NCBI GenBank assembly: GCA_023381555.1
Contig: JAMCRV010000013.1
Location: 1-39,054, forward strand
Source: Chloroflexota bacterium
GTDB taxonomy: Bacteria > Chloroflexota > UBA4733
Reading direction: 5' to 3'
Length of the DNA stretch: 39,054 nt
In this document: in pieces, positions 9,806 through 25,315 of the stretch
How positions within the stretch are numbered: position 1 is the stretch's first letter
How the letters are laid out: the number at the start of each line of letters is the position of its first letter
Position numbers and translations under genes: made by a program
Notes under the pieces: generated by a model
The model's input: only the letters and a program-made list of their open reading frames with translations
Told to the model about the DNA's origin: nothing
The model's database searches: none

Positions 9806-10591
9806 CTACACGAGCTGCACAAGCCGTCCGTCTTGGATCTCGTAGGTGATGTGGGCTATCTCGTTGATGGTCGGATCGTGTGTCGCGACTATCACGGTGA
9901 CTCCGTGATCAACGACGATCTTGCGAAAGAGGCGTAAGATCTGGAGTCCGGTCACACTGTCAAGCTCGCCGGTCGGCTCGTCAGCCAAGATGATCAGTGG
10001 ATTGTTGGCAAGCGCACGAGCGATGGCAACACGCTGCTGCTGTCCACCGGAGAGCTCAAATGGACGGTGGTCGAGGCGGTGTCCTAAGCCAATGAGCTCC
10101 AATAGGTCGCGGCTCCTCCGATCACGGACAGCCGCCGGTAAACCAGCGATGCGCATGGCCAGATCGACGTTTTCTCGAGCCGAGAGCACCGGAAAGAGCG
10201 CATAAGACTGGAAGACAAAGGACATTTTCGATCGGCGTAGCAGAGTCGCTTCCCGATCAGTGAGTGAGCTGATGGTCTGTCCTTCGATACGGACTGATCC
10301 GGCCGTGGGTCGATCCAAGCCGCCGATGATGTTGAGCAACGTGGTCTTGCCAGAGCCTGATCGCCCACGTAGTGCGACCATTTGTCCGGCTTCAACACTC
10401 AGGGTGATCCCTGTGAGCGCTGGCACGTCATTCCCGTGAAACCGATAGATGCGTGTCACATCACGCACGTCAATGATGGGACCGTCATACGTGCTTCGCT
10501 CCAGCGGTGCCAGGATGTCTGCAATGTCTGTCGGAACCGACTGTGTCCGTGTTCCACTACGTCGCAGCTGAGGCAATCGCAGCCGGATCAC
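9806..10591 (-). CDS. ABC transporter ATP-binding protein (LolD/MacB type)
   Basis: Walker [13 protein letters not shown], signature [15 protein letters not shown], Walker [15 protein letters not shown]. Confidence 0.93.
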
Positions 10592-11514
10592 TGAGGCCTC
10601 CGTTGTGGAGTCTTTCCACCTTCGTCGACGGGGCGGATCTCGATCTTGCCGTCAGTGACTTCGAGCTGAACCTTCCGGTGAATGTCGAGGCGCTCCATCA
10701 TCTCCCTTGGAAGCTGTAGTCGCCCCGCATTGTCAAGGACGACGAATTCCTCGTGTGTGCTCCCAAAGTCTAGTGGATCGTCAAGGTTGACGTCAGTGCG
10801 CCGGAGACTCTCTGTGCTCGTCTTGCCATCACGAATGGAAACCACCCGATCAACGCGCGACGTCACCGTCCGATCGTGAGTAACGATCATCACAGTAGTG
10901 GCATAGCTCTGAACCAGGCGGCGAAAGATCTCGAAGATGAGATGTGCCGCCGCCGTATCGACGGACCCAGTCGGCTCGTCCGCGAGGAGTAGGGGAGGGT
11001 TGTTGGCGAGCGCCACGGCGATGGCAACACGCTGCTGCTGACCTCCAGACATCTGCAAGGGCAGATGGTGCATCCTGTCCGCCAGTCCTACCTGCTCCAG
11101 GAGTTCTTGAGCCCAAGCACGGCGCTTCCGCGGTGACGCACCGTAAATGATCATCGGCACCTCGACGTTCTGTAATGCCGTCAGGTAGGGAATGAGATTC
11201 CGGGATGTCTGTTGCCACACAAAGCCGACAACCTCCCGCTTGTAGCGTACGAGAGTCCGCTCAGGAATCTTGAGGAGGTTGTAACCGGCGACCATCGCGC
11301 TTCCCGCAGATGGCCGATCAAGTCCACCAAGCACGTTCAGCAGGGTCGTCTTGCCCGAACCGGAGTTGCCGACAATGGCCATGAGCTCTCCTCGCTGGAC
11401 GGTCAGATCGAGCCCCTGCAAGGCCATGGCTTCGAGATCTTGCACCTTGTAGATCTTGACCAGGTTTTCGCACGTCACCAAAGGTTCATCGTTGGCGAGA
11501 TCGAGCCTGCTCAC
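10588..11514 (-). CDS. ABC transporter ATP-binding protein with AbrB/SpoVT-like C-terminal segment
   Basis: Walker [13 protein letters not shown], signature [15 protein letters not shown], Walker B LLLADEPTGSVDT. C-terminus EEFVVLDNAGRLQLPREMMERLDIHRKVQLEVTDGKIEIRP resembles an AbrB swapped-hairpin domain. 4-nt overlaps with both neighbouring genes. Confidence 0.92.
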   Translation of the reverse strand: MSRLDLANDEPLVTCENLVKIYKVQDLEAMALQGLDLTVQRGELMAIVGNSGSGKTTLLNVLGGLDRPSAGSAMVAGYNLLKIPERTLVRYKREVVGFVWQQTSRNLIPYLTALQNVEVPMIIYGASPRKRRAWAQELLEQVGLADRMHHLPLQMSGGQQQRVAIAVALANNPPLLLADEPTGSVDTAAAHLIFEIFRRLVQSYATTVMIVTHDRTVTSRVDRVVSIRDGKTSTESLRRTDVNLDDPLDFGSTHEEFVVLDNAGRLQLPREMMERLDIHRKVQLEVTDGKIEIRPVDEGGKTPQRRPQ

Positions 11515-14456
11515 CCTTGCTCCTCCCCCAACTTGGTTGCTTCATAGATTCTCATTCGAAGCAGCATGCCAATCATCACAGGCAGCGCCAAAATGAGCAT
11601 GATTGCCAGAACCGTGTACAGCTTGAATACCTGATCCCACGGCGTATGCACCAGGAAAGGAGGAACGTTGGCGTGGCTGTCCAGATCGATGTGCAAGAAC
11701 GGGATGAACAAAGAGCTTGCATAGCGCCCGATAACCGTACCGAGACCCACGCCCAGGAATATGAGGAAGAGTTGCTCGAAGCCCAGCATAGCTACCAAGC
11801 CCCATACCGATAGACCGATTGCCCGCATGATGCCGAACTGCTGCATTCGCCGTTGATAACTCAGGAAAGAATAGAGTAAGAAGCCCATTACCGTAAGCAA
11901 CGTCGCCACCAGGAAGCCCACGGTCAGCGTTCCAAAGAGTCCAGTGGTCTCGGGAAGACTCCGCGCTTTGAAGATCTCCGACTGTGTATCCGTAACTTCA
12001 TAGATAGGATACTCTGGCAGGTTTGCAAGCTCATTGCGCACCATTGTCGGCGATGCACCTGGAGCGAGCTTGAGCAGCACCGTCCACGGCTGCTGACCCT
12101 CTATGCCCAGGACGTAGTCAATATTGACAAGGAAGAAGTCGCCATCTTGGGGGTAGACCGTAGGCCAGACGTTGACGGTCCCCTTCAGCACGAGAGGAAT
12201 AGTCGTGACCGGAGTAGTGTTTCCCCCGACGGTGACGAGGATCGTCTGTCCTGGACTCAGATGATTCTTACTCATGAAGGAGCTGCTTACGACGACAGCA
12301 TCATCTTCAGACCGGAGCATCGATAGGACGTCATTTTCGGTCTCGGGAGCATTAAGGCCATGCCGGTACCAACCATAGGAGGCGTACGTGTACGGGTCGA
12401 TCGCCACCAGCTTTACCGTGCCGCTCGAATGGCCAGCCGTAGTGACGACGGTTGCTTTGGAATCCACCAACATCCGTGTGGCTCCCAGGATCCCTTTCAG
12501 GCCCTGATAGCGCTGAATGGGCTCCATATTCCACACCTGATGCACCTGGTCATACTCCCCCCGCTCCAAGAACGTGAGGTCGGCGCCATTCTGGTAGTAG
12601 AGATGATCAGAGACGTTCTGATCCAGCGTCTGCGCCATAGAAGCGCTGAAAATACCCAGACTCATCGTTAGGGTGACCAGCAACACGAGACGCGTGTACT
12701 GGCTTGGCGTCCGGCTGATCTGGCGAAAAGCCAGGAGCATCCAGAGCGGAGCGACCCGGTGGCTCAGTCGGGCAACAGCCTCCGAGAGAATCGGAAACAC
12801 GCGCATACCAACAAGTGCAAGGGCAAACATGAAGAAGGCAGGTACCAGCAACAACACAGGATCCTGGACGGCGGTGCCGCTCTGGCTGATCGCTAGCAGC
12901 GACCCATTCTGTTGCAGCAGCTTGTAGCCATATATGGCCACACCAAGAACGGCAAAATCGAGGAAGTAGCGCTGCCAGAATGGCTTTCGCGAACTGCGCG
13001 CGACTTCAGCCTTGTAACTGATGATCGTATAGCGTGCCGCTGCTGCCGCAGGAAGCAACAGGGCAAAGAATGAGAGTCCGACAGCTGCGAGCACATAACG
13101 ATATGTGTCGGATGAAAGCCGGACGGGAAGTAGTCCCCTATTCACGAAGACGAGGAACGTGTAGGTGAATCCGATGAACTGCGCTACCAGACCACCTATT
13201 AGCGGCCCGAGAATAAGGGCGATGGCGCCAAAAAAACCTCCCTCCACAACGTAGATGCCGAGAACTTGAATGTTACTGGCGCCACGGCTCTTCAGTACCG
13301 CGATTTCGTTTCGCTGGCGGTCGACCAGCATCGTCGAAGCGAGCAGAATATAGTAGAGCACGATGGCGAGTGTGGGAACGGACAGCGCGAACAAGAGGAT
13401 CTTGAGGAAGTACGAATCTGTCTCGAATTGCTCGAGCACTTTGACTGGCGAGATATCGAGAGTAACCCCGCTCATCAACGAGGACGCCGTTGCGGTTAGC
13501 TGCTGTGAGCCGCTAATCACCTGAGCAGCATTAGTAGAATGAATATCGTGCTGGTTGAAGATAAAGAACCAGTAGTATTCATACTCGGCATTCGGGTTTA
13601 CTTTAAGGACACCATTGAAATAGTTCTGTTCTGGTACAAGAACGTAGTCATTAAATGTGTCTGGGCGGTAGAACCAGTAAGGCTCATTGGGATTCTTTGG
13701 TCGCCAGGTGCCGACAATACGAACCTTGATCGGGACCGCTTGGAAAGCGCCTTGATTCGCAAAGGTCACTACATCGCCCACATTGATCAAATACTTTTCG
13801 GCTCCAGCCTGAGTCATGAGCCCTTCAACGTTGTGCTGGCTATCGAATACGTGGTCAGGGAATTTGCCCTGGGTAATCACAATGTGTTGCTGCAGGTCGC
13901 TGAGGAAGCCGATAGCGAGATAGTTCTTGAACTGGTTGCCATTCGCTACTGTCCGTTGCCCGAGAGCATACACAGGGAGCTTGTCGGTTGCTCCGTAGCG
14001 CACCCCTTGTTGCAAGGGAAGATCCACGGTACTCGGGCCATTCTTCTCCAGGTAGTTGTTCGCTGCCCAGTATTGCGACACCGGCGGTGGAGGTGTCGCG
14101 TTGCTTGGCGTTGAATTGGGACTGTTTGAATTGAAAACCCAGTGAAAGAGCAGGCTTGCCGGTGGCTGAGCTTGATCAGTCTGACTCTGCAAGCTCTCAT
14201 GGAGCAGCTTCTCCGAGATGCCGTCAGCGTACAGTGGAATAGCGGACACGAGCGCTACACTGATCACGAGGCCTAGGGTGGTTGCTGCGACAAGACGAGC
14301 GTTCGCGCGGGCACGCTCAAGCACCATGACCAGTACGGAGGCAGCGTTACCGAAAATCCCCACGCCCAGCAACGCCAAGAGCCTACCGGCCGTGCGGATC
14401 CCCGTATGCAGGAGCGCTCCCGACCGTTGGGGGAAGGTGCCGCTACGGACTCCCAA
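11511..14456 (-). CDS. FtsX-like ABC transporter permease (long form); start uncertain (TTG 14456 or ATG near 14327)
   Basis: N-terminal TM then large extracytoplasmic domain; internal TM clusters with DRQRNEIAVLKSRGASNIQVLGIYVVEG and C-terminal YQRRMQQFGIMRAIGLSVWGLVAM, characteristic of duplicated FtsX/MacB permeases. Confidence 0.88.
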   Translation of the reverse strand: MGVRSGTFPQRSGALLHTGIRTAGRLLALLGVGIFGNAASVLVMVLERARANARLVAATTLGLVISVALVSAIPLYADGISEKLLHESLQSQTDQAQPPASLLFHWVFNSNSPNSTPSNATPPPPVSQYWAANNYLEKNGPSTVDLPLQQGVRYGATDKLPVYALGQRTVANGNQFKNYLAIGFLSDLQQHIVITQGKFPDHVFDSQHNVEGLMTQAGAEKYLINVGDVVTFANQGAFQAVPIKVRIVGTWRPKNPNEPYWFYRPDTFNDYVLVPEQNYFNGVLKVNPNAEYEYYWFFIFNQHDIHSTNAAQVISGSQQLTATASSLMSGVTLDISPVKVLEQFETDSYFLKILLFALSVPTLAIVLYYILLASTMLVDRQRNEIAVLKSRGASNIQVLGIYVVEGGFFGAIALILGPLIGGLVAQFIGFTYTFLVFVNRGLLPVRLSSDTYRYVLAAVGLSFFALLLPAAAAARYTIISYKAEVARSSRKPFWQRYFLDFAVLGVAIYGYKLLQQNGSLLAISQSGTAVQDPVLLLVPAFFMFALALVGMRVFPILSEAVARLSHRVAPLWMLLAFRQISRTPSQYTRLVLLVTLTMSLGIFSASMAQTLDQNVSDHLYYQNGADLTFLERGEYDQVHQVWNMEPIQRYQGLKGILGATRMLVDSKATVVTTAGHSSGTVKLVAIDPYTYASYGWYRHGLNAPETENDVLSMLRSEDDAVVVSSSFMSKNHLSPGQTILVTVGGNTTPVTTIPLVLKGTVNVWPTVYPQDGDFFLVNIDYVLGIEGQQPWTVLLKLAPGASPTMVRNELANLPEYPIYEVTDTQSEIFKARSLPETTGLFGTLTVGFLVATLLTVMGFLLYSFLSYQRRMQQFGIMRAIGLSVWGLVAMLGFEQLFLIFLGVGLGTVIGRYASSLFIPFLHIDLDSHANVPPFLVHTPWDQVFKLYTVLAIMLILALPVMIGMLLRMRIYEATKLGEEQG

Positions 14457-14557
14457 GCGGAGCTCCCGTCAGGAGAAGGACACCTACAGTGGCGAACAAC
14501 CGAAGAGACCGATCGCACAGCCAGCAAGCTGGGATGAGAATCGTACGGCAGGTCGCT

Positions 14558-16645
14558 CTAAATGTTGCGTGCAAAGACACGCTGCCCTTCTTTGAGACCG
14601 GAGACCACTTCCGTCTCTTGGTCATTTTGGACGCCGATCTGAATGTCCACCGGTTGCTGCCTGCCACCTTCATCGAGCAACACGAAGGTCCGGCCATTGA
14701 TGGTGTTGACAGCACCCGTCGGGATGAGCAGAACGTTGTCTTTTCGCTGAATAACGATCGTGACGCTGGCCAGCTGACCAATCTCAGCTCCTGGTCCCGG
14801 CCACTGCGGCATGATACGTGGTGATTGGTCTATAGCCGTTCCTGGAGGAGGCGTGGAACTCTGGCTCGATGAACCGGTCTGATCGGGCGAGCTTGACGAG
14901 CTTGTCGAGGCAGCGCTGACTGTGGGTAGAGCGGAGACTGCCCCTTCGAACTTCTTTCCGGGGAAGATACTCATCGTGATTGTAGCCTTCTGTCCGACCG
15001 CGACCTGAGTGAGCTGAGACTGCGGCACACTCACCGCCAGCTCGAGCTGAGTCGGATTCGCCACGGTGATCACTGCTGTATATGCCGCCACCTGATCACC
15101 CGGCTGACCCTGAGCCGCCACGACGATTCCATTGAACGGAGCGACGAGCTCCATCTGATCGAGTTCGTCGTTGTCTTGAGCGAGCTGTAACTGTGCTTGG
15201 TCGACCTTCTTCTGATAGATCTGCAGGCTAATGCTGTTCGTATTACCTTGGGCGACTTGTTGCTGTGCCTTCTCGAGCTGGGCCTGCGCGACCGTGATTC
15301 CCGCCGTTGCCTGGGCCACACTATCGTTCTGTTCCCGGACGACATTGGGGGAAGGATTGGTCAGGCTGTTATACGCAACCTGGGCCGACTCCAATCCAGC
15401 ACGGGCGCTGGCTACGGCCTGTTGAGCCTGAGCAATCTGGGCGGACGTAGGTGTGAGCGCCGCCTGACTGGCCCTTGCCTGCGCTAGCGCAGCTTGAGCT
15501 GCTTGGACGGCCGCCTGCGCCTGAGCAATATCAGTCGGGGTGGCCCTGGCCACTACCTGCTCATAGGTTACCTGCGCCGCTGTCAGTTGAGCCTGCGCCT
15601 CTTGGAACGTTGCGCTGGCTTGCTGGGCATCCGTCGGCAAGACCGTATTCAAGGTGGCGAGCGTCTGATTGGCCGCATCCAAATTTGTCTGGGCGGTATT
15701 GACCGCAGCATTCGCCGCCTTACAACTGGCAGCACTGGTGCTCTGTCCACACGCGGCGTCACGTTGTGTCTGAACGGCATAGAGCGCATTCTTGGCTTGC
15801 GTTACTGCAAGTTGAGCCTTTTGGACTTGAGCAGGGGTCGGGCCATTTTTGAAGGCCTGGTACTGTGCCTGCGCCGCATCGAAAGCAGCCTGGGCAGCCT
15901 GGAGCTTCGCCTTCGCAAGCGCTACATCCTGTGGCTGCGGTCCTGCTTCGAGCTGAGCCAGATGCTGTTGGGCTATTGTCAACCCAGCCTGAGCAGCTAT
16001 CACTGCCGCCTGTGCTCGCTGTGCGTCAGCAGGGTTTGGTCCCTGTTGGAGCTGTTGGAGCTGCAACGTTGCCGCGTTCAGCGTCGCCGTCGCTGCATCG
16101 ACTGCGGCCTTTGCCTTTGAGACATCGATGCTCGCTGGGTGCAGGAGACCATTGAGCTTGGCCCCGGCCGCATTGTAGCCAGCCTGAGCTGCGGCAAGAT
16201 TTGCCTCGGCCGCCTTGACATCGTCTTTGAGACCCAAGTTCGATGCTGAAAGGGCCGCCTGGGCCTGTTGGAGACTGAGTTTTGCAGCATCCGCAGCAGC
16301 CTGATCGCGCGCGATCTGCTTCCGGAGCGTCGACGTATCCAACGAGGACAGAACCTCGCCCTTTGTTACTTTGTCACCTACCTGCACGTTCATTGCCTGC
16401 AGGTTTCCTGGTACGCGGAAGTAGAGGTCTTGCTGTTGCACAGCGACGACGCGTCCCAGAGCCTTGATGCTGTCCACAATAGAGCCCCGCGTCACAGTGA
16501 AGGTAGGGCGAGGCGGGGGTATGGGTGTCGGTACAGGAGTTGGTGTGGGAGCGACACTCGCCACGATTGGATTCGCACATCCTGCCAGCAGAATGCTACC
16601 GGCGACTACGATCGCCGCTGCGCGCGCTATTCGGAGCCTCAACAC
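14558..16645 (-). CDS. HlyD/MacA-family efflux adaptor lipoprotein with extended Ala/Gln-rich helical repeat region
   Basis: Lipobox SILLAGC; LYFRVPGNLQAMNVQVGDKVTKGEVLSSLD (lipoyl/barrel half); long A/Q repeats; second half MELVAPFNGIVVAAQGQPGDQVAAYTAVITVANPTQLELAVSVPQSQL. Confidence 0.9.
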   Translation of the reverse strand: MLRLRIARAAAIVVAGSILLAGCANPIVASVAPTPTPVPTPIPPPRPTFTVTRGSIVDSIKALGRVVAVQQQDLYFRVPGNLQAMNVQVGDKVTKGEVLSSLDTSTLRKQIARDQAAADAAKLSLQQAQAALSASNLGLKDDVKAAEANLAAAQAGYNAAGAKLNGLLHPASIDVSKAKAAVDAATATLNAATLQLQQLQQGPNPADAQRAQAAVIAAQAGLTIAQQHLAQLEAGPQPQDVALAKAKLQAAQAAFDAAQAQYQAFKNGPTPAQVQKAQLAVTQAKNALYAVQTQRDAACGQSTSAASCKAANAAVNTAQTNLDAANQTLATLNTVLPTDAQQASATFQEAQAQLTAAQVTYEQVVARATPTDIAQAQAAVQAAQAALAQARASQAALTPTSAQIAQAQQAVASARAGLESAQVAYNSLTNPSPNVVREQNDSVAQATAGITVAQAQLEKAQQQVAQGNTNSISLQIYQKKVDQAQLQLAQDNDELDQMELVAPFNGIVVAAQGQPGDQVAAYTAVITVANPTQLELAVSVPQSQLTQVAVGQKATITMSIFPGKKFEGAVSALPTVSAASTSSSSSPDQTGSSSQSSTPPPGTAIDQSPRIMPQWPGPGAEIGQLASVTIVIQRKDNVLLIPTGAVNTINGRTFVLLDEGGRQQPVDIQIGVQNDQETEVVSGLKEGQRVFARNI

Positions 16646-17649: not shown

Positions 17650-18807
17650 TCAAGCTTCTTGCAAAGCACGTTCATAAACTTCCTCGAGCCGGTCGATGAT
17701 GTGCGGCCACGTGAAGAGGCGGCTGATAGCCGCTGTCCCTCTCGCAGAGAGCAGTCCGGCCAGGCGCGAATCCCCTAACACTCTCCCAATCGCGTGTGCC
17801 AGCGCCGTCGCATCACCCGGCTTCACAAGCAAACCTCCACCTGTCGCCGCAACAACACTTCGCACTCCCGGAATGTCGCTAGCGACCACCGGCGTCCCAC
17901 TCGCGAGCGACTCCAACAGCACGACACCAAACGCTTCTCCGCGTGTCACCGACGGCAGAACCGTCACGTCAGCAGCTCGATAGAACACTGGGAGGTCCCT
18001 GTCCTCAACGCTATCTGCAAACGTCACACGCGCAGCGATATCAAGCTCCTGTGCCGCAGTGCGATACGCTGGCAGCAGGTTCCCTCGCCCGACGATGACG
18101 AGCCGGGTCTCGGGCTGTGCGAGAAGCCGGACCGCCTCCAAGAGCACCCGGACACCCTTGAAGAAATGAGCACAGTCGAGCGCCCCTACAAACAGAACGA
18201 TGCGCTCATAAGTGCTCCATCCGAGGGCGGCTCGCTGCTCGGCGCGGTCCCGCATGGGATGAAAGCGCTCGGTGTCGACTCCAAGTGGAAGAGGGATCAC
18301 ACGACTGCTCTGCCGCGATAGCATCGGTGCAAGCCGGCTAGATGCCGCGTAGTCTGCTGAGGTAGGCATGATAACTCTGGCTCTGTGGAGAATAGCTCGA
18401 CCCATGGTCGCGTGATGTGCCAGTACGATCACGTTGGTGATACCAGGCAAGGCAACGTCCTGGTGATAGGTGACGACGTACGGGATATGCCGCATCACTG
18501 CTCCCAACCAGGCACAATCCCCACCTCCGTAGAACGGGTAGTGAAGGTGGAGAAGGTCAGGCTTATCCATCCATAGCTGCTGGAGGATGAGTGCTGCATT
18601 CCCATAGACAAGCTGGGGGGCGAAGCGCACTACCCGCGGCGTCTCACACTCGATGACAGTATGACCAGAGTAAGCAACGGTGTAGACAGCGACGTCATGG
18701 CCACGATGCATGAGCACGGTAGCCTGCTCGCGACAAACCCTCCCAGTACCACCGTAGTAGGGCGGATATGTCGCCGTGACGTGCGCGATCTTCAAGCTCG
18801 CCTCCAT
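17650..18807 (-). CDS. Family 4 glycosyltransferase (GT-B)
   Basis: MEASLKIAHVTATYPPYYGGTGRV ... PLGVDTERFHP ... VLFVGAL ... VTVLPSVTRGEAFGVVLLESLASGTPVVASDIPGV. Confidence 0.92.
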   Translation of the reverse strand: MEASLKIAHVTATYPPYYGGTGRVCREQATVLMHRGHDVAVYTVAYSGHTVIECETPRVVRFAPQLVYGNAALILQQLWMDKPDLLHLHYPFYGGGDCAWLGAVMRHIPYVVTYHQDVALPGITNVIVLAHHATMGRAILHRARVIMPTSADYAASSRLAPMLSRQSSRVIPLPLGVDTERFHPMRDRAEQRAALGWSTYERIVLFVGALDCAHFFKGVRVLLEAVRLLAQPETRLVIVGRGNLLPAYRTAAQELDIAARVTFADSVEDRDLPVFYRAADVTVLPSVTRGEAFGVVLLESLASGTPVVASDIPGVRSVVAATGGGLLVKPGDATALAHAIGRVLGDSRLAGLLSARGTAAISRLFTWPHIIDRLEEVYERALQEA

Positions 18808-19859
18808 AGCGCCATCATCCGCGCCAGTACGTAGGGAATGGCAAAGAACGGTGTCAACATAACCTCGCCAGCAATACCGGCAGTCTTGCCCAGTTGCTGA
18901 CGCAGTAGCACGTGGGGAGAAAGAAGCCTGAGCAATGCCGCATCGCCCACAATTCGAGTGGCAGCAATCTGTGCCCTCTGTTCGAGCACGTGGTGCCGTA
19001 CTTGCCACACGTGCAGATAACTTCCAAGCTTGGCACGCAAGAATGTTGGACCCCGAAGAGCAGAATACACAAGAGCGCTAAGGTCTGCCAGTATCAAGCC
19101 GGGGAGTAGGGTGAACAGCAAACCCCGCGAATAGTGCTTGAAGAGCAGCTTCCAGCGGTTCGCTTCAAGCTCCCCCAGCTTGAAAGGGGTGAAATTCCAA
19201 CGATAGTCGTGCATCGCGATGGCATCCGCAACGCACCAGCACGTCCCACCTTGCTCAATAGCACGTAGTGAGAGATCGGTATCCTCAAGGTACATAAAGA
19301 AGCTCTTATCAAAGCCACCGAGTGCTTGGAAATCTGCTTTGCGGGCAGCAAAGGCGGCCCCTGATACTGCTGGGACGAGATGCCATCCAACGTCGCGTAA
19401 CGACCGGCCAAGCCCCCTGCAATAGGTCAAGAAGGCGTACGTCACGTGATTACCTTGGGTGTTGATGAGACCATTGGGCAAAAGGAGCGTTGGAGTCGCC
19501 AGTGAGAGAGGCGGCAGTGAGTCTAGAGCTCGTGCGAGCTTCTGCAGGCAGTCCGGCTGCACAACGACGTCAGGGTTGACAAAGAAGAGGAAATCTCCAG
19601 AGGCGCATTCGGCCCCCAGATTGTTCCCACCTCCGTAGCCCAGATTCTGACCTGATGACACCAGTTTGACCCGGGACCACTGGTTGGTGAGAGAAAGCAA
19701 GTCAAGATCGCCGCAATTGTCGACGACGATGATCTCGTCATCGCCGGTGAGTGCACGGTCCAGAGCCGCAAGGCACGCCTTAAGCTGTTCTAGGCTCCGC
19801 CAGAAGACAACAACAGCCGACCAGCGCCCTGTCACTCTCTCAGGGCTGACGAAGGTCAT
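18792..19859 (-). CDS. Family 2 glycosyltransferase, rhamnosyltransferase-like
   Basis: DEIIVVDNCGD, NLGYGGGNNLGAECASGDFLFFVNPDVVVQPDCL, SGAAFAARKADFQALGGFDKSFFMYLEDTDLSLRA. Confidence 0.92.
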   Translation of the reverse strand: MTFVSPERVTGRWSAVVVFWRSLEQLKACLAALDRALTGDDEIIVVDNCGDLDLLSLTNQWSRVKLVSSGQNLGYGGGNNLGAECASGDFLFFVNPDVVVQPDCLQKLARALDSLPPLSLATPTLLLPNGLINTQGNHVTYAFLTYCRGLGRSLRDVGWHLVPAVSGAAFAARKADFQALGGFDKSFFMYLEDTDLSLRAIEQGGTCWCVADAIAMHDYRWNFTPFKLGELEANRWKLLFKHYSRGLLFTLLPGLILADLSALVYSALRGPTFLRAKLGSYLHVWQVRHHVLEQRAQIAATRIVGDAALLRLLSPHVLLRQQLGKTAGIAGEVMLTPFFAIPYVLARMMALWRRA

Positions 19860-20784
19860 CGATCATCACCCTCAATGCGTGCAGAATGATGCCAACGAGG
19901 GCAAAGAATACCCCAACGATGATGAGCGCCATACTTAATATGGCAAAGCCAACCGCCAGCTGTTCGTTGAGTGCATAGGTGGCCGTGACCTTCACACCCA
20001 AGATCAAGCCGATGATGATGAGTGACGTACCGACCACGCCAAACAGGTAGAGCGGCCGGCGCCGCTCCAGTTGATCGAGGAGCGAGTGCACGATCTGAGT
20101 GCCGTGGCGCACCGGGCTCCGCTTCGCGGGTTCGGCATACACTACGTGAATGGGCACCTCAGTGACTCGTAGGCCCGCTTGATATGCAATGAACTGCATT
20201 TCAGACTCCACAGCGAAGTGTGTGCTCCGAAAGCGCATCTTCTTGATCGCCGCCCGCGAAAAGGCGCGGAAACCGCTCTGAGAGTCAGAAATGGCCACTC
20301 CCGAAGCGACATTGGTCAGCGTGGTGAGGGCATGCTGGCCGAACTGCCGATACGTAGGGATGCGACTCTGCACCCCAGAGAAACGAGTACCCACGACCAT
20401 GTCGGCTTCGTCCCGAAGCACAGGCCCGACGACCTGCGGAATGTCGGCTGGATTATGCTGGCCATCTCCGTCAATAAGTACTAAGCAATCGACTCCTGCT
20501 TCCTCCGCCCAGCGAAATGAGGTGGCGATGCCTGCAGCCTTTCCACGATTACGCTCATGGCGGATGACCGTCGCCCCTGCGGCTTCCGCCACTTCGGCCG
20601 TACGATCCCGAGAGCCATCATCCACAACGACCACGATGCCGGCCACTTTCTTAGCTTTCAGCACCACAGAGCCGATAAACCGATCCTCGTTGTACGAGGG
20701 AATCGCAACTGCCACCACGCCCCGTGGAGGCTCGCCTTCAGGTGACGAAGCGGCATCAGCAGATACAGACATTGTGTCGATCAC
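19840..20784 (-). CDS. DPM1-like family 2 glycosyltransferase with C-terminal TM segments (polyprenyl-phosphate sugar synthase-like)
   Basis: AIPSYNEDRFIGSVVLKAK, VVVDDGSRDRTAEVAEAAGA, VLIDGDGQHNPADIP, GTRFSGVQSRIPTYRQFGQ; two hydrophobic C-terminal segments. Confidence 0.9.
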   Translation of the reverse strand: MIDTMSVSADAASSPEGEPPRGVVAVAIPSYNEDRFIGSVVLKAKKVAGIVVVVDDGSRDRTAEVAEAAGATVIRHERNRGKAAGIATSFRWAEEAGVDCLVLIDGDGQHNPADIPQVVGPVLRDEADMVVGTRFSGVQSRIPTYRQFGQHALTTLTNVASGVAISDSQSGFRAFSRAAIKKMRFRSTHFAVESEMQFIAYQAGLRVTEVPIHVVYAEPAKRSPVRHGTQIVHSLLDQLERRRPLYLFGVVGTSLIIIGLILGVKVTATYALNEQLAVGFAILSMALIIVGVFFALVGIILHALRVMIDDLRQP

Positions 20785-22784
20785 GAGTACCTCCAGTGCA
20801 ATGTCAGGTGCTCATCCGTGCGCAACCTAGTGTTCAATTGCCACACGCTTGGTGCAATTCGCTTCCAATCCGACGGGGGATTGACGAGGTGCAGCTGCGG
20901 TGCCAGATGCACGTCAACAGTGATAGGATTGGCAACAGTTCCAGGCTGCTTCTGAAGCGTGAGCGCATACTCATTGGTTGCAACCCTCGAAATGTCCGGC
21001 TGGTAGGCGAAGGTCAACGAGCGTGTCTGTCCGGGGTGGACGACGAGATAGGCAGTGAGCTGAGACTTGCCATCAGCGATAACGTAGCCAGGAGTGTCGT
21101 CACTGCCGGTGATCTGCTCCAGGTGAGTGTGTAGGGGAGTGAGCACCCGCACATACGTCGCGAAGATGCCTGTGCCGTTCTGCATGGTATTGGTGCGAAA
21201 GTTATACAACTCACTGTGGAGCTCCTTCCACACGCGTAGCGCACCGAGCTCATTGTAGAGGTTCTGATAGGTAATCGTCAGCGTGTCGCGGGTGACCTGG
21301 CCGTCGGGCCCAATTTCCACGGTGAGATGCTCGGATTCCTTCATCACCGCGGTCATCTTTCCGTATGACACCTGAGTATCCACTACCTCGACGCCATCTC
21401 CTGGTGACGACCATACTGAGCCATCCGCGTGGGCCGCTTTGGCAAAGGCTTCGAGTGATGGATTATTGAAATAGACTTGCAGGTGCTTTTCTTGAATCGA
21501 CGTGACCAAAGCAGCACCGAGCTTGGTGAGGTTAACATTGGCCGGTTGCTCGAGCTTGGCAACCACGGCCCGAACCAGCGCTGAGAGAAAGTCGGTCTTG
21601 TCCATCTCACGCTGCGACGTGATCGAGCCCGACGCGTTGATGTTCTTCCAAAGCTCTGCCAGCAGATTGTCAGCAGAGATCGTCTCAGCATACTGTGGCA
21701 CGTACACGGGGCCGATCGCTCGAAGCAGATCCTGAACGGCGTAGGTGTCCACTGCGATCACGCCGTTGACCTGGACGTGTTGATCTCGTTCAAAGAACTG
21801 TTCCTCGAGCTTGGCTGAGGTAGGAAAGTTTGGCGACCAGTTGGCATCACGGAGGTACCAGGCCGCGATCCCCATGTAGTGCTCGAGCGGGAAGGGCGGC
21901 GTAAGGTGCGGCTGACTCGGTGTCTCGAAGTCGAGAACCCCCCTATAATCGAGCTTGGTGATCTGAGCATTCGAGACATTTACCAGCCCCATACCACCAA
22001 CGAACCCGCCCGTCGCCCGCAGCTCGAACGGATCTTGCCCAAGAACTAGATAGCTCTGACTGTGGTCCATACCAAGTGCTGTCTGGGCGGCGTGAGGCAG
22101 TAGAAGTATCAACGATGTCGCCTGGTCGAGCTCGTTCAACACTGCGTCCTCCTTGGCAATCAGTACGTTCAGCCTTGAAGAGATCGCTGAAAGTTGAGGT
22201 GAGAATCGCTTGCGCTGAGCTACCGCACACGAAAACTGGTCTCGCGCTTGCTTGATCCGATTTTCCTCGTGTTGAAGCACGAACGCTGCATCGTGGAGTG
22301 TTTGCAGCGGTGGCTGACTCTTCGCGATTGCGGAGAGCGATGCGAATACATCAGATACATCAGCAGCACTCGCGGTCAGGCATGCTGTGCCCTGGAGCAA
22401 CGGAGAAGCGCTCTGGAATAGCGGACCCCAGTGAGGTAGGTGCCCCAGAGCGGCAAGGATCGGAGACCACAGTGGCAGCGGGACGACCGCTCGACTCAGG
22501 TCGCTCGTCGCGGATTGGAGCTGGCTGTCAAGGTCTTGCAGCTTTACGGGCTGTTGCAGCAGGAGAGTAGGACTGGCATCAGCAGCTACTCGTCGAAGTG
22601 CAGAAGTCCCACGCCACGTTTCGATTCCTAGGAATACACCAGAGAGCACGTACAGCAAGAGCAGAACGCCAACGCAAGAAGCGAGAACTCGTAGGATGCG
22701 GCGTCGAAGAGCACGCCGTGACACGCGTCGCTGGGCCGCTTCGACCTGCTGACGTAACTGTGCGCGCTGTTCCTCAGTGAGCAT
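20781..22784 (-). CDS. DUF4012-domain membrane-anchored extracytoplasmic protein
   Basis: N-terminal TM (ILRVLASCVGVLLLLYVLSGVFLG) and hallmark SYLVLGQDPFELRATGGFVGGMGLVNVSNAQI ... NGVIAVDTYAVQDLLRAIGPVYVP. Confidence 0.85.
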   Translation of the reverse strand: MLTEEQRAQLRQQVEAAQRRVSRRALRRRILRVLASCVGVLLLLYVLSGVFLGIETWRGTSALRRVAADASPTLLLQQPVKLQDLDSQLQSATSDLSRAVVPLPLWSPILAALGHLPHWGPLFQSASPLLQGTACLTASAADVSDVFASLSAIAKSQPPLQTLHDAAFVLQHEENRIKQARDQFSCAVAQRKRFSPQLSAISSRLNVLIAKEDAVLNELDQATSLILLLPHAAQTALGMDHSQSYLVLGQDPFELRATGGFVGGMGLVNVSNAQITKLDYRGVLDFETPSQPHLTPPFPLEHYMGIAAWYLRDANWSPNFPTSAKLEEQFFERDQHVQVNGVIAVDTYAVQDLLRAIGPVYVPQYAETISADNLLAELWKNINASGSITSQREMDKTDFLSALVRAVVAKLEQPANVNLTKLGAALVTSIQEKHLQVYFNNPSLEAFAKAAHADGSVWSSPGDGVEVVDTQVSYGKMTAVMKESEHLTVEIGPDGQVTRDTLTITYQNLYNELGALRVWKELHSELYNFRTNTMQNGTGIFATYVRVLTPLHTHLEQITGSDDTPGYVIADGKSQLTAYLVVHPGQTRSLTFAYQPDISRVATNEYALTLQKQPGTVANPITVDVHLAPQLHLVNPPSDWKRIAPSVWQLNTRLRTDEHLTLHWRYS

Positions 22785-24168
22785 CGTAACGCCTCACTGC
22801 CAGTTCATAAGCCATAAGGGTCTTTTGGTACCAAGGAAATGCTTGCAGTCGAGTGTCTACGACACGCACGTCTGGGCGAAGCCCCAAGACGAGCTGAGCG
22901 TACCACAAGGCGAATGTCTCTTGGTCCGTTGACGACTGAATGATCGCTCCTGGAGGAGTAGCGGCAAGCAGCTGCCGCACCCATCTGACCTCCTCGGTGT
23001 CTCCGCGCAGCGAGCTGACGTGCACTCCGATCGCCAGACTCCCAACCAAACCAATAGCAATGGCACCACTCCAGATGAATGCCCTGACTCGCCCCCGCTC
23101 CAATCCAGCGACGAGTTGAGCTATCCCCAACCCTGCACAGAGGCTAAGAAACACGACCAAAGGTAATTGATAGTGCTCCACGCCGGCAGCAGCGTAGAAA
23201 GCGGGCAAGGCGATGTAGAGTGGAATGAGGGCAAACCAGGGGCGAAGACGCAAGTCCTTCCAGGTTCCGGCCAGTCCCACGAGCGCCAATGGCCAGCCCA
23301 ACCACGAGAACTGGATTACGAGGTCGTGAATGGAAGCGACAAGGCGCGACAGTGCTAGGGGAACGTCGGACACTAGCAGAAGGTAACGATATTGTGCTCC
23401 CGTCACCGTCCGCCACAGCGCTGAGAGAGTCTCGGGATCTCCCCAGTTCAGTGGTGGATGCGCCCGCGCCCGCAGAACCAAGACGGCGTAGAGCGCGGCA
23501 CCCGGAAGGACAAACGCGAGCGACGCCACCTGAGAGATCCGTGGAAGCTGGTTGCGCCACAACCCGATAAGTGCAGTCGGAATCCCGGTCACATGATTGG
23601 CCATAGTCAGCCCGAGAAGGAGTGTGCTCCAACCAGTGACCGCCTCGTTGATGGCAACAGTGACGACCAGAGACATGAGGAGGGTGTGGAGGGCATAGGT
23701 CTCGGTCACAACAGCAACATTCCACAGTCCTGTTGATGTTCCCAAGGTCAGTCCAGCAACCACCCCTCCGACGAGAGCGACTGTCTGCCCGCCGCTGGCG
23801 CGTAAGAATGCTGCTGTACCAAACGTGACCGTCCCACAGGAGAGAGCTGCTGCAAGGGCGGAAAGCAGCGCCAGGCGTCCTGCTGGATCTCCGACCAGTG
23901 GCAATCTCAGAAATCCCACTGCGAGGAGAAGCCAGAGAGGATACCCTGTGGGATGGGGAACACCAAAGACGAAAGCCGCAGCCGCGAGCTCGGCGCTATC
24001 CGTAGAGTCGTGCTGCCAGGTCACTGTGGGAGCGGCGGTCAAGGCATAGACAATAAAGAAGAGCAGCGTGACAACGGCGCTACTGGCGAGCGTCTGAGCC
24101 CGTGGAGATCGGAACATAAGCCTTGTCTGACTCACCACGTACTCACCTTCGCAGCTCCAAATCAGCAT
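22774..24168 (-). CDS. DUF2723-type GT-C membrane protein (protein O-mannosyltransferase-like)
   Basis: TAAPTVTWQHDSTDSAELAAAAFVFGVPHPTGYPLWLLLAVGFLRLPLVGDPAGRL ... NVAVVTETYALHTLLMSLVV; multiple TM helices. Confidence 0.82.
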   Translation of the reverse strand: MLIWSCEGEYVVSQTRLMFRSPRAQTLASSAVVTLLFFIVYALTAAPTVTWQHDSTDSAELAAAAFVFGVPHPTGYPLWLLLAVGFLRLPLVGDPAGRLALLSALAAALSCGTVTFGTAAFLRASGGQTVALVGGVVAGLTLGTSTGLWNVAVVTETYALHTLLMSLVVTVAINEAVTGWSTLLLGLTMANHVTGIPTALIGLWRNQLPRISQVASLAFVLPGAALYAVLVLRARAHPPLNWGDPETLSALWRTVTGAQYRYLLLVSDVPLALSRLVASIHDLVIQFSWLGWPLALVGLAGTWKDLRLRPWFALIPLYIALPAFYAAAGVEHYQLPLVVFLSLCAGLGIAQLVAGLERGRVRAFIWSGAIAIGLVGSLAIGVHVSSLRGDTEEVRWVRQLLAATPPGAIIQSSTDQETFALWYAQLVLGLRPDVRVVDTRLQAFPWYQKTLMAYELAVRRYDAH

Positions 24169-24196: not shown

Positions 24197-24772
24197 GTGC
24201 GAGAGACAGCAGCCAGTGAGGAACATGAGAACGTGACTCGCCGCACACCGTCAGATGTCCACGATCCAGGAAGGCCTTTCTTCTGCGCCAAATGCGCCTC
24301 GCCGCTCCGGATGATGAACAGGGGAGGTCGGGAGCGCCCCATCTGCCCGCTCTGTGGTTGGACCTACTATGCGAAGAATGCCACAGGTGCTGCAGTGGCT
24401 ATCACTGAGCAAGGAAGACTGCTTTTGGTGCAGCGCAAGTATCCGCCCTTCGCTGGTAGCTGGACGCTCCCTGCCGGTTACGTCGAATATGGCGACTCGG
24501 CCTGTGACACAGCGGTGCGGGAAGCGCGTGAAGAGTGCGGGCTCGAGGTTCAGCTCGATGGGTTAGCCGGCGTGTACTTTGGAGCCGACGACCCTAGGGA
24601 TGCTGCCCATCTCATCGTCTACGCGGCCCACATCGTCGGTGGCGGACTCCGCCCGGATGACGATGCCGCGCAAGTAGAGTTCTTCTCACCCAATGCTCTC
24701 CCGGAAGAAATCGCATTTGAGGGACAGCGCGCAGCAATCCGCGATTGGAAGCAGAATCACTCCACGTGCTGA
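24197..24772 (+). CDS. NUDIX hydrolase with N-terminal zinc ribbon
   Basis: FCAKCASPLRMMNRGGRERPICPLCGWTYYAKN (CxxC...CxxC) and Nudix box GYVEYGDSACDTAVREAREECGL (first Glu of GX5E is Asp). Confidence 0.9.
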   Translation: MRETAASEEHENVTRRTPSDVHDPGRPFFCAKCASPLRMMNRGGRERPICPLCGWTYYAKNATGAAVAITEQGRLLLVQRKYPPFAGSWTLPAGYVEYGDSACDTAVREAREECGLEVQLDGLAGVYFGADDPRDAAHLIVYAAHIVGGGLRPDDDAAQVEFFSPNALPEEIAFEGQRAAIRDWKQNHSTC

Positions 24773-24787
24773 GAAGAGGCGCACCGG

Positions 24788-25315
24788 CTACCCGCCCGTG
24801 GTCGAACCGGCAGCTGCGTCCATCTCCTCTGGAGCGGAGCCATCATCGGGAAACTGCCGGCGCAGCTCATCTTCTAGAGCACGCGGGACCTTGAGGAAGA
24901 GCGATTCGGCGCGCGCGTAGACAGTTCCCTGCTCGTCGGTAATGATCGCCCGCAGTTTCTTTGCGTGTCCGCGGTCTTCCACAAGCTCGGCGGTCGCGCG
25001 CAGTAGCCGGTGTATGGGCACAGGTCGATGGTATCTCACCTCGAGCTTACCGGTGACTGCAAAATCATCATGACCGTAGAGCTCCCAGGCCATGACTTCG
25101 TCAAGTACTGTCGCAACAAGCCCACCGTGGACGACTCCACCGAATCCCTGCCAAGACTCGTCTGCTTCAAAGTCGATGAACGTTTTCTCGTCTTGATGCT
25201 GGACGCGAAGCTGGAGGCCGCGAGGATTCACTGGCCCGCACGCGAAGCACGCATTGTTGCGAATTGTGCGCGGAGTCCGCCCTACCCACACCCGGTTCGC
25301 AGGAGACATGCTCAT
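24788..25315 (-). CDS. PaaI-like hotdog-fold thioesterase
   Basis: CFACGPVNPRGLQLRVQ ... WQGFGGVVHGGLVATVLDEVMAW ... GKLEVRYHRPVPI. Confidence 0.88.
   Translation of the reverse strand: MSMSPANRVWVGRTPRTIRNNACFACGPVNPRGLQLRVQHQDEKTFIDFEADESWQGFGGVVHGGLVATVLDEVMAWELYGHDDFAVTGKLEVRYHRPVPIHRLLRATAELVEDRGHAKKLRAIITDEQGTVYARAESLFLKVPRALEDELRRQFPDDGSAPEEMDAAAGSTTGG

Follow-up and report, generated by a model that had tools for sequence, protein, structure and literature searches.

A Chloroflexota glycan gene cluster combining a TMEM260-like GT-C enzyme with a DUF4012 protein of predicted LCP-like fold

Introduction

What is made by a run of overlapping genes for GT4 and GT2 glycosyltransferases, a GT-C enzyme and a protein of the DUF4012 family, and what part could the DUF4012 protein play in it? 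This question is raised by a locus of a Chloroflexota bacterium, analysed here within a window of 39,054 nucleotides, which corresponds to bases 1-39054 of a 49,996-base contig from an assembly that is 67% complete. Among 5.39 million open papers DUF4012 appears in three, in none of them together with the LytR-CpsA-Psr (LCP) family, and in Bifidobacterium longum a DUF4012 gene is situated between those for a priming transferase and wzz (PMC5412050). The original prediction regarded the five genes as one module for lipid-linked extracytoplasmic glycosylation, with the DUF4012 protein as a candidate acceptor, scaffold or glycan-attachment factor.

Results

Organization of the gene cluster

All five predicted overlapping open reading frames were found on the minus strand, and each family name is backed by a Pfam match (Table 1). 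In the order of transcription they encode the GT-C, the DUF4012 protein, a DPM1-like GT2, a second GT2 and a GT4, with successive overlaps of 11, 4, 20 and 16 bp. The open frame of the GT4 extends to 19008 and its conserved N-terminus begins at the ATG at 18807, while the real start of the GT-C may lie 11-17 codons further in. The description of the second GT2 as rhamnosyl-like has to be qualified, as it rests on a sub-threshold match (4.8e-5). A promoter scan returned 6 promoter-like sites against 2.7 expected, none of them convincing as the operon start, and a terminator scan returned 7 terminator-like sites against 6.3 expected.

Table 1. Positions of the cluster genes, of DUF4012 regions and of flanking genes in the window
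Feature	Position	Strand	Evidence
TMEM260-like (PF11028) GT-C, 464 aa	22774..24168	-	Pfam 1.1e-17, 33-sequence alignment, model, Foldseek
DUF4012 protein (PF13196), 667 aa	20781..22784	-	Pfam 1.4e-29
Predicted LCP-like core of DUF4012, aa 238-452	21429..22073	-	Model, Foldseek, HHalign, invariant residues
Predicted beta-sandwich region at the DUF4012 C-terminus, aa 460-667	20784..21407	-	Model, Foldseek
DPM1/AglJ-like GT2 with C-terminal TM segments	19840..20784	-	PF00535 2.4e-23
GT2 glycosyltransferase	18792..19859	-	PF00535 2.3e-16; G002 orthologue
GT4 glycosyltransferase	17650..18807	-	PF00534 5.1e-36; G002 orthologue adjoining the trio
Nudix hydrolase, divergent	24197..24772	+	In interval absent from G002
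4HBT thioesterase	24788..25315	-	Synteny marker; also upstream of the trio in G002

Genes for a priming transferase, a flippase or a polymerase are absent from the cluster, and family searches, by which the gene content of the own genome was checked, located a priming transferase and a sortase elsewhere in this genome. The earlier statement that no ABC exporter is present had to be corrected for the surroundings of the five genes. On the same strand, about 1 kb downstream of the GT4 gene, an ABC exporter occupies positions 9806-16645 of the window and comprises an HlyD-like lipoprotein adaptor, a 981-aa FtsX/MacB-like permease and two ABC ATPases.

In a relative from another genus of the same family (G002, contig C457), genes for the thioesterase, DPM1-like GT2, GT2 and GT4 follow one another in the same order as in the window, with identities of 63% for the DPM1-like GT2 and 51% for the GT2, and the Nudix, GT-C and DUF4012 genes are absent between the thioesterase and the DPM1-like GT2. 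The majority of GT-C/DUF4012 pairs in turn occur without this trio. Because trio and pair are found separately, the five-gene set is a composite and not a conserved unit; conservation of all five genes across relatives is thereby ruled out, and with it the view of one conserved module.

Recurrent pairing of GT-C and DUF4012 genes

The predicted co-occurrence of the GT-C with DUF4012 proved to be real, since a GT-C of the window's type (P0005-like) is encoded on the same strand and at most two genes away from 31 of 58 DUF4012 genes when the window is included, and from 30 of the 57 close relatives with enough flank to be scored when it is not. Counted over all DUF4012 loci other than the window's, such a GT-C lies within two genes in 30/75. 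As the loci are the best 80 of 500, these frequencies are valid for close relatives only. Apart from the window's own pair, the GT-C is upstream of DUF4012 in 20 of the 30 pairs and downstream in 10, and the two genes overlap or are at most 10 bp apart in 19. The background density of P0005-like GT-C genes is about 0.1 per Mb (61 relatives, 206 Mb), and the pairing is far above chance. On the DUF4012 tree the paired or unpaired label changes 11 times, with at least five changes forced by well-supported branches. DUF4012 was found in 20 of 61 relative genomes in an HMM-based sample, and the GT-C adjoins it in four of these 20 (G000, G027, G052 and G054), so that the pair is recurrent, not universal.

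GT-C enzyme and probable polyprenyl-phosphate sugar synthase

The GT-C scores 64.8 bits against PF11028 (cut-off 24.2), the TMEM260-like family formerly named DUF2723. Its structural model (pLDDT 90.5) matches PglB, ALG12, ArnT and Pmt4 in Foldseek, that is, the GT-C fold, and the alignment of 33 sequences reveals an invariant D57 together with Asp or Glu at position 60 in the first extracytoplasmic loop. Human TMEM260 is known to O-mannosylate Ig-like IPT domains (PMC11292533). Two more TMEM260-like GT-C genes are present in the window's own genome (G000:C21:3020-3481 and G000:C44:181-660), the latter copy being interrupted by a contig end.

The DPM1-like GT2 contains DDGS and DGDGQH motifs and C-terminal TM segments, and it matches the NCBIfam models AglJ (5e-47; 160.6 bits, below the cut-off of 325) and PpgS (9e-37; 126.7 bits, below the cut-off of 370). 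Judged by these sequence features, it is probably a polyprenyl-phosphate sugar synthase. The combination of an AglJ/DPM1-like synthase with a protein of GT-C fold bears out the proposed logic of lipid-linked extracytoplasmic glycosylation.

Predicted LCP-like fold of DUF4012

The AlphaFold model of DUF4012, built from 58 relatives (mean pLDDT 90.5), consists of a TM helix, a long helical stretch, an alpha/beta core and a C-terminal beta region. The only hydrophobic segment, aa 28-46, constitutes the N-terminal TM helix, and the remaining domain would be placed outside the membrane, as in LCP proteins. Foldseek searches of the PDB with this model gave 3pe5 as the top match (E 2.1e-4), with LytR (8qty), TagV (6uf3) and Cps2A (3tep and 2xxq) also within the top 50, at a probability of 1.00. 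A canonical Chloroflexota LCP protein retrieves the same PDB entries by sequence, hence 3pe5 is an LCP structure. The TM-scores are moderate (0.36-0.44 on target length) with large rmsd, and, as Foldseek gives no aligned range, the LCP matches were assigned to the DUF4012 core by secondary-structure content. Global HHalign comparison was uninformative. Comparison of the core with 20 LCP proteins yielded a score of 24.3 (E 0.0085, probability only 5%), which exceeds all of 150 column-shuffled controls (maximum 21.7). The best segment places 'VDGVIAVD..LL.ALGPV' of DUF4012 opposite 'IDYYV.VDF..LIDAIGGV' of LCP, and a low-stringency alignment is collinear across 195 columns.

With E values up to 10, PF03816 is absent among the families matched by the window's DUF4012 protein and from the 25 most frequent families of the 58 DUF4012 proteins. 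Taken together, the model makes an LCP-like fold of DUF4012 highly likely; the protein is not a member of PF03816, yet is probably LCP-like in function. Given this predicted fold, the earlier statement that the module has no LCP gene is probably wrong in function, and the role of acceptor or scaffold appears less likely than that of a transferase.

When solved structures were searched with the DUF4012 sequence alone, the only matches were chance ones to coiled coils. Further fold matches, to M1 aminopeptidase domains and to chain E of human OST-B, were assigned to the C-terminal beta region, again by secondary-structure content, and the aminopeptidase-like matches were taken as generic beta-sandwich similarity.

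Conserved residues of DUF4012

Residues E254, R256, G259, G260, R312, D313 and N315 show no variation, either among the 11 proteins found by HMM or among the 58 collected by the scan. Since the collection scan demanded an RD[SA]N pattern, invariance of R312, D313 and N315 is partly built in, and for these three only the 11 HMM-found sequences are independent. The invariant charged residues are located in loops corresponding to those that flank the LCP active site. Position 396 is Arg or Lys in 57 of 58 proteins and may be equivalent to R227 of TagT. In TagT, R118 is the Arg of the PRD motif that serves LCP enzymes as general base (PMC6381275). The DUF4012 segment aligned with this motif lacks a conserved Arg and no counterpart of the catalytic residue is evident, with the invariant R256 and R312 present instead; hence the chemistry of DUF4012 may differ from that of LCP enzymes.

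Genomic context of DUF4012

Named DUF4012 matches in the collection scan come mostly from Chloroflexota, and in several genomes, among them G031, G040 and G010, the number of DUF4012 genes ranges from four to seven. Genes for Wzz and tyrosine kinase, tyrosine phosphatase and priming transferase are the kinds found around Cps2A. Two loci from related genomes (L139 and L140) have the cps-like order Wzz/tyrosine kinase, low-molecular-weight phosphatase, DUF4012, exported protein and GT-C, so that DUF4012 occupies the position of CpsA among the Wzz, kinase and phosphatase genes; in L139 a priming sugar transferase is also encoded, further upstream. Over the 75 DUF4012 loci, priming-transferase-like sequences, identified by similarity to one query, occur in 20 and Wzz-kinase in nine.

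In five loci, mostly of Patescibacteria (L094, L096, L098, L100 and L108), an mreB-sized gene directly follows DUF4012, and all three of these that were singly checked encode MreB by Pfam. LCP proteins were first described during a search for MreB partners (PMC7831098). Close to the DUF4012 gene of another locus is an open frame of tandem VHPLSAD/VHPSSAD repeats (L142:3628-4041).

Discussion

The reading that we favour, at a probability of roughly 55%, is that DUF4012 acts as the transferase that brings a polyprenyl-PP-linked glycan onto an envelope acceptor, within an operon that would both make and attach an envelope glycan. On the cytoplasmic side, the GT4 and GT2 would extend the polyprenyl-linked glycan, and the AglJ/DPM1-like GT2 would transfer a single sugar to polyprenyl phosphate. 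On the outer side, the TMEM260-like GT-C would draw on this polyprenyl-P-sugar as donor for glycosylating the exported glycan or an exported protein, and the membrane-anchored DUF4012 would move the polyprenyl-PP-linked glycan, as a phosphodiester, to peptidoglycan or to a wall-anchored protein. We infer the substrate, the acceptor, the direction of flow and the catalysis by DUF4012 in this scheme.

Candidate protein acceptors are encoded near many GT-C/DUF4012 pairs, in the form of exported proteins rich in Pro/Thr/Ser, some of which carry Ig-like domains of the DUF11 type. Such proteins account for 17 of 156 near genes and 23 of 601 far genes (Fisher p 0.001) in an exploratory test that was defined after examples had been seen and that used mechanically called ORFs. 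An exported DUF11 protein precedes a GT-C in locus L136, and in G002 the GT4 of the trio is followed by a Ser/Thr-rich protein ending in LPTAG and a TM segment. In Actinomyces oris, the wall-anchored GspA is glycosylated by LcpA (PMC6381275), so that proteins can be substrates of an LCP-type enzyme. These observations, together with the activity of TMEM260 on IPT domains and the sortase in the genome, argue for a system devoted mainly to protein O-glycosylation, in which the GT-C would modify exported Pro/Thr/Ser-rich or Ig-like proteins from polyprenyl-P-sugar and DUF4012 would extend or link the glycan. However, no such exported protein is encoded beside the window's cluster, and with the enrichment test being post hoc this alternative is doubtful. 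Equally tentative is the broader proposal that the LCP-fold phosphotransferases have in DUF4012 a second branch, unrecognised at the sequence level, and that DUF4012 together with the TMEM260-like GT-C glycosylates exported Pro/Thr/Ser-rich or Ig-like surface proteins of Chloroflexota.

Pro/Thr/Ser-rich neighbours were also noted in L043, L056, L059, L074, L076, L079 and L087, some of them ending in LPPTG or a TM segment; at some of these loci a shadow frame of such a gene makes up the longest ORF.

DUF4012 could also be a non-catalytic relative of LCP proteins, acting as scaffold for, or as chain-binding partner of, the GT-C or a polymerase, with ligation left to a canonical LCP. A canonical LCP is encoded in 52 of 61 relatives and separately in the own genome, which, along with the lack of the PF03816 signature and with long helical and beta domains that suggest protein contacts, is consistent with such a role. 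However, the invariant charged residues in loops matching those around the LCP active site, the CpsA position of DUF4012 and the finding of a canonical LCP in only one of the 75 DUF4012 loci render it unlikely. A chance juxtaposition of two unrelated glycan functions in one directon, as the separate occurrence of trio and pair might suggest, is more improbable still, given the overlaps of the five genes on one strand and the distant genome G004, where a stretch of 16 kb contains DUF4012, a flippase, GT4 genes and a homologue of the DPM1-like GT2 (49% identical).

DUF4012 resembles the LCP enzymes TagTUV, Cps2A and A. oris LcpA in its predicted core fold and N-terminal membrane anchor, its relatives are placed like Cps2A among Wzz, kinase, phosphatase and priming-transferase genes, and in Patescibacteria its gene neighbours mreB. 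It differs in having ELR-TGGF and RDxNW motifs where LCP enzymes have RSD, PRD and RQ, in lacking a PF03816 match and in its extra C-terminal beta domain. The GT-C has PF11028, the GT-C fold and the acidic pair of loop 1 in common with the protein O-mannosyltransferase TMEM260 (GT117); however, unlike the human enzyme, it comprises 464 aa without the TPR part and adjoins an LCP-like gene. As in streptococcal cpsABCDE, LCP-like, phosphotyrosine phosphatase, Wzz, kinase and priming transferase genes are found in L139/L140, although there the phosphatase is of the low-molecular-weight type, a GT-C is added and the order is partly changed, whereas the window lacks these phosphatase, Wzz, kinase and priming-transferase genes. 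A polyprenyl-P sugar synthase beside a GT-C is also the arrangement of the AglJ and Ppm1-Pmt systems of lipid-linked glycosylation, but the window's synthase falls below the curated AglJ and PpgS cut-offs and its GT-C is TMEM260-like, not a GT39 Pmt.

The DUF4012 family is widespread in both Chloroflexota and Patescibacteria and is also present in the capsule locus of B. longum. An LCP-like assignment brings it within reach of pyrophosphatase assays that already exist and would point to the way in which these bacteria attach their surface glycans, and the pairing of GT-C and DUF4012 would provide a bacterial setting for the enzyme family behind human TMEM260 disease.
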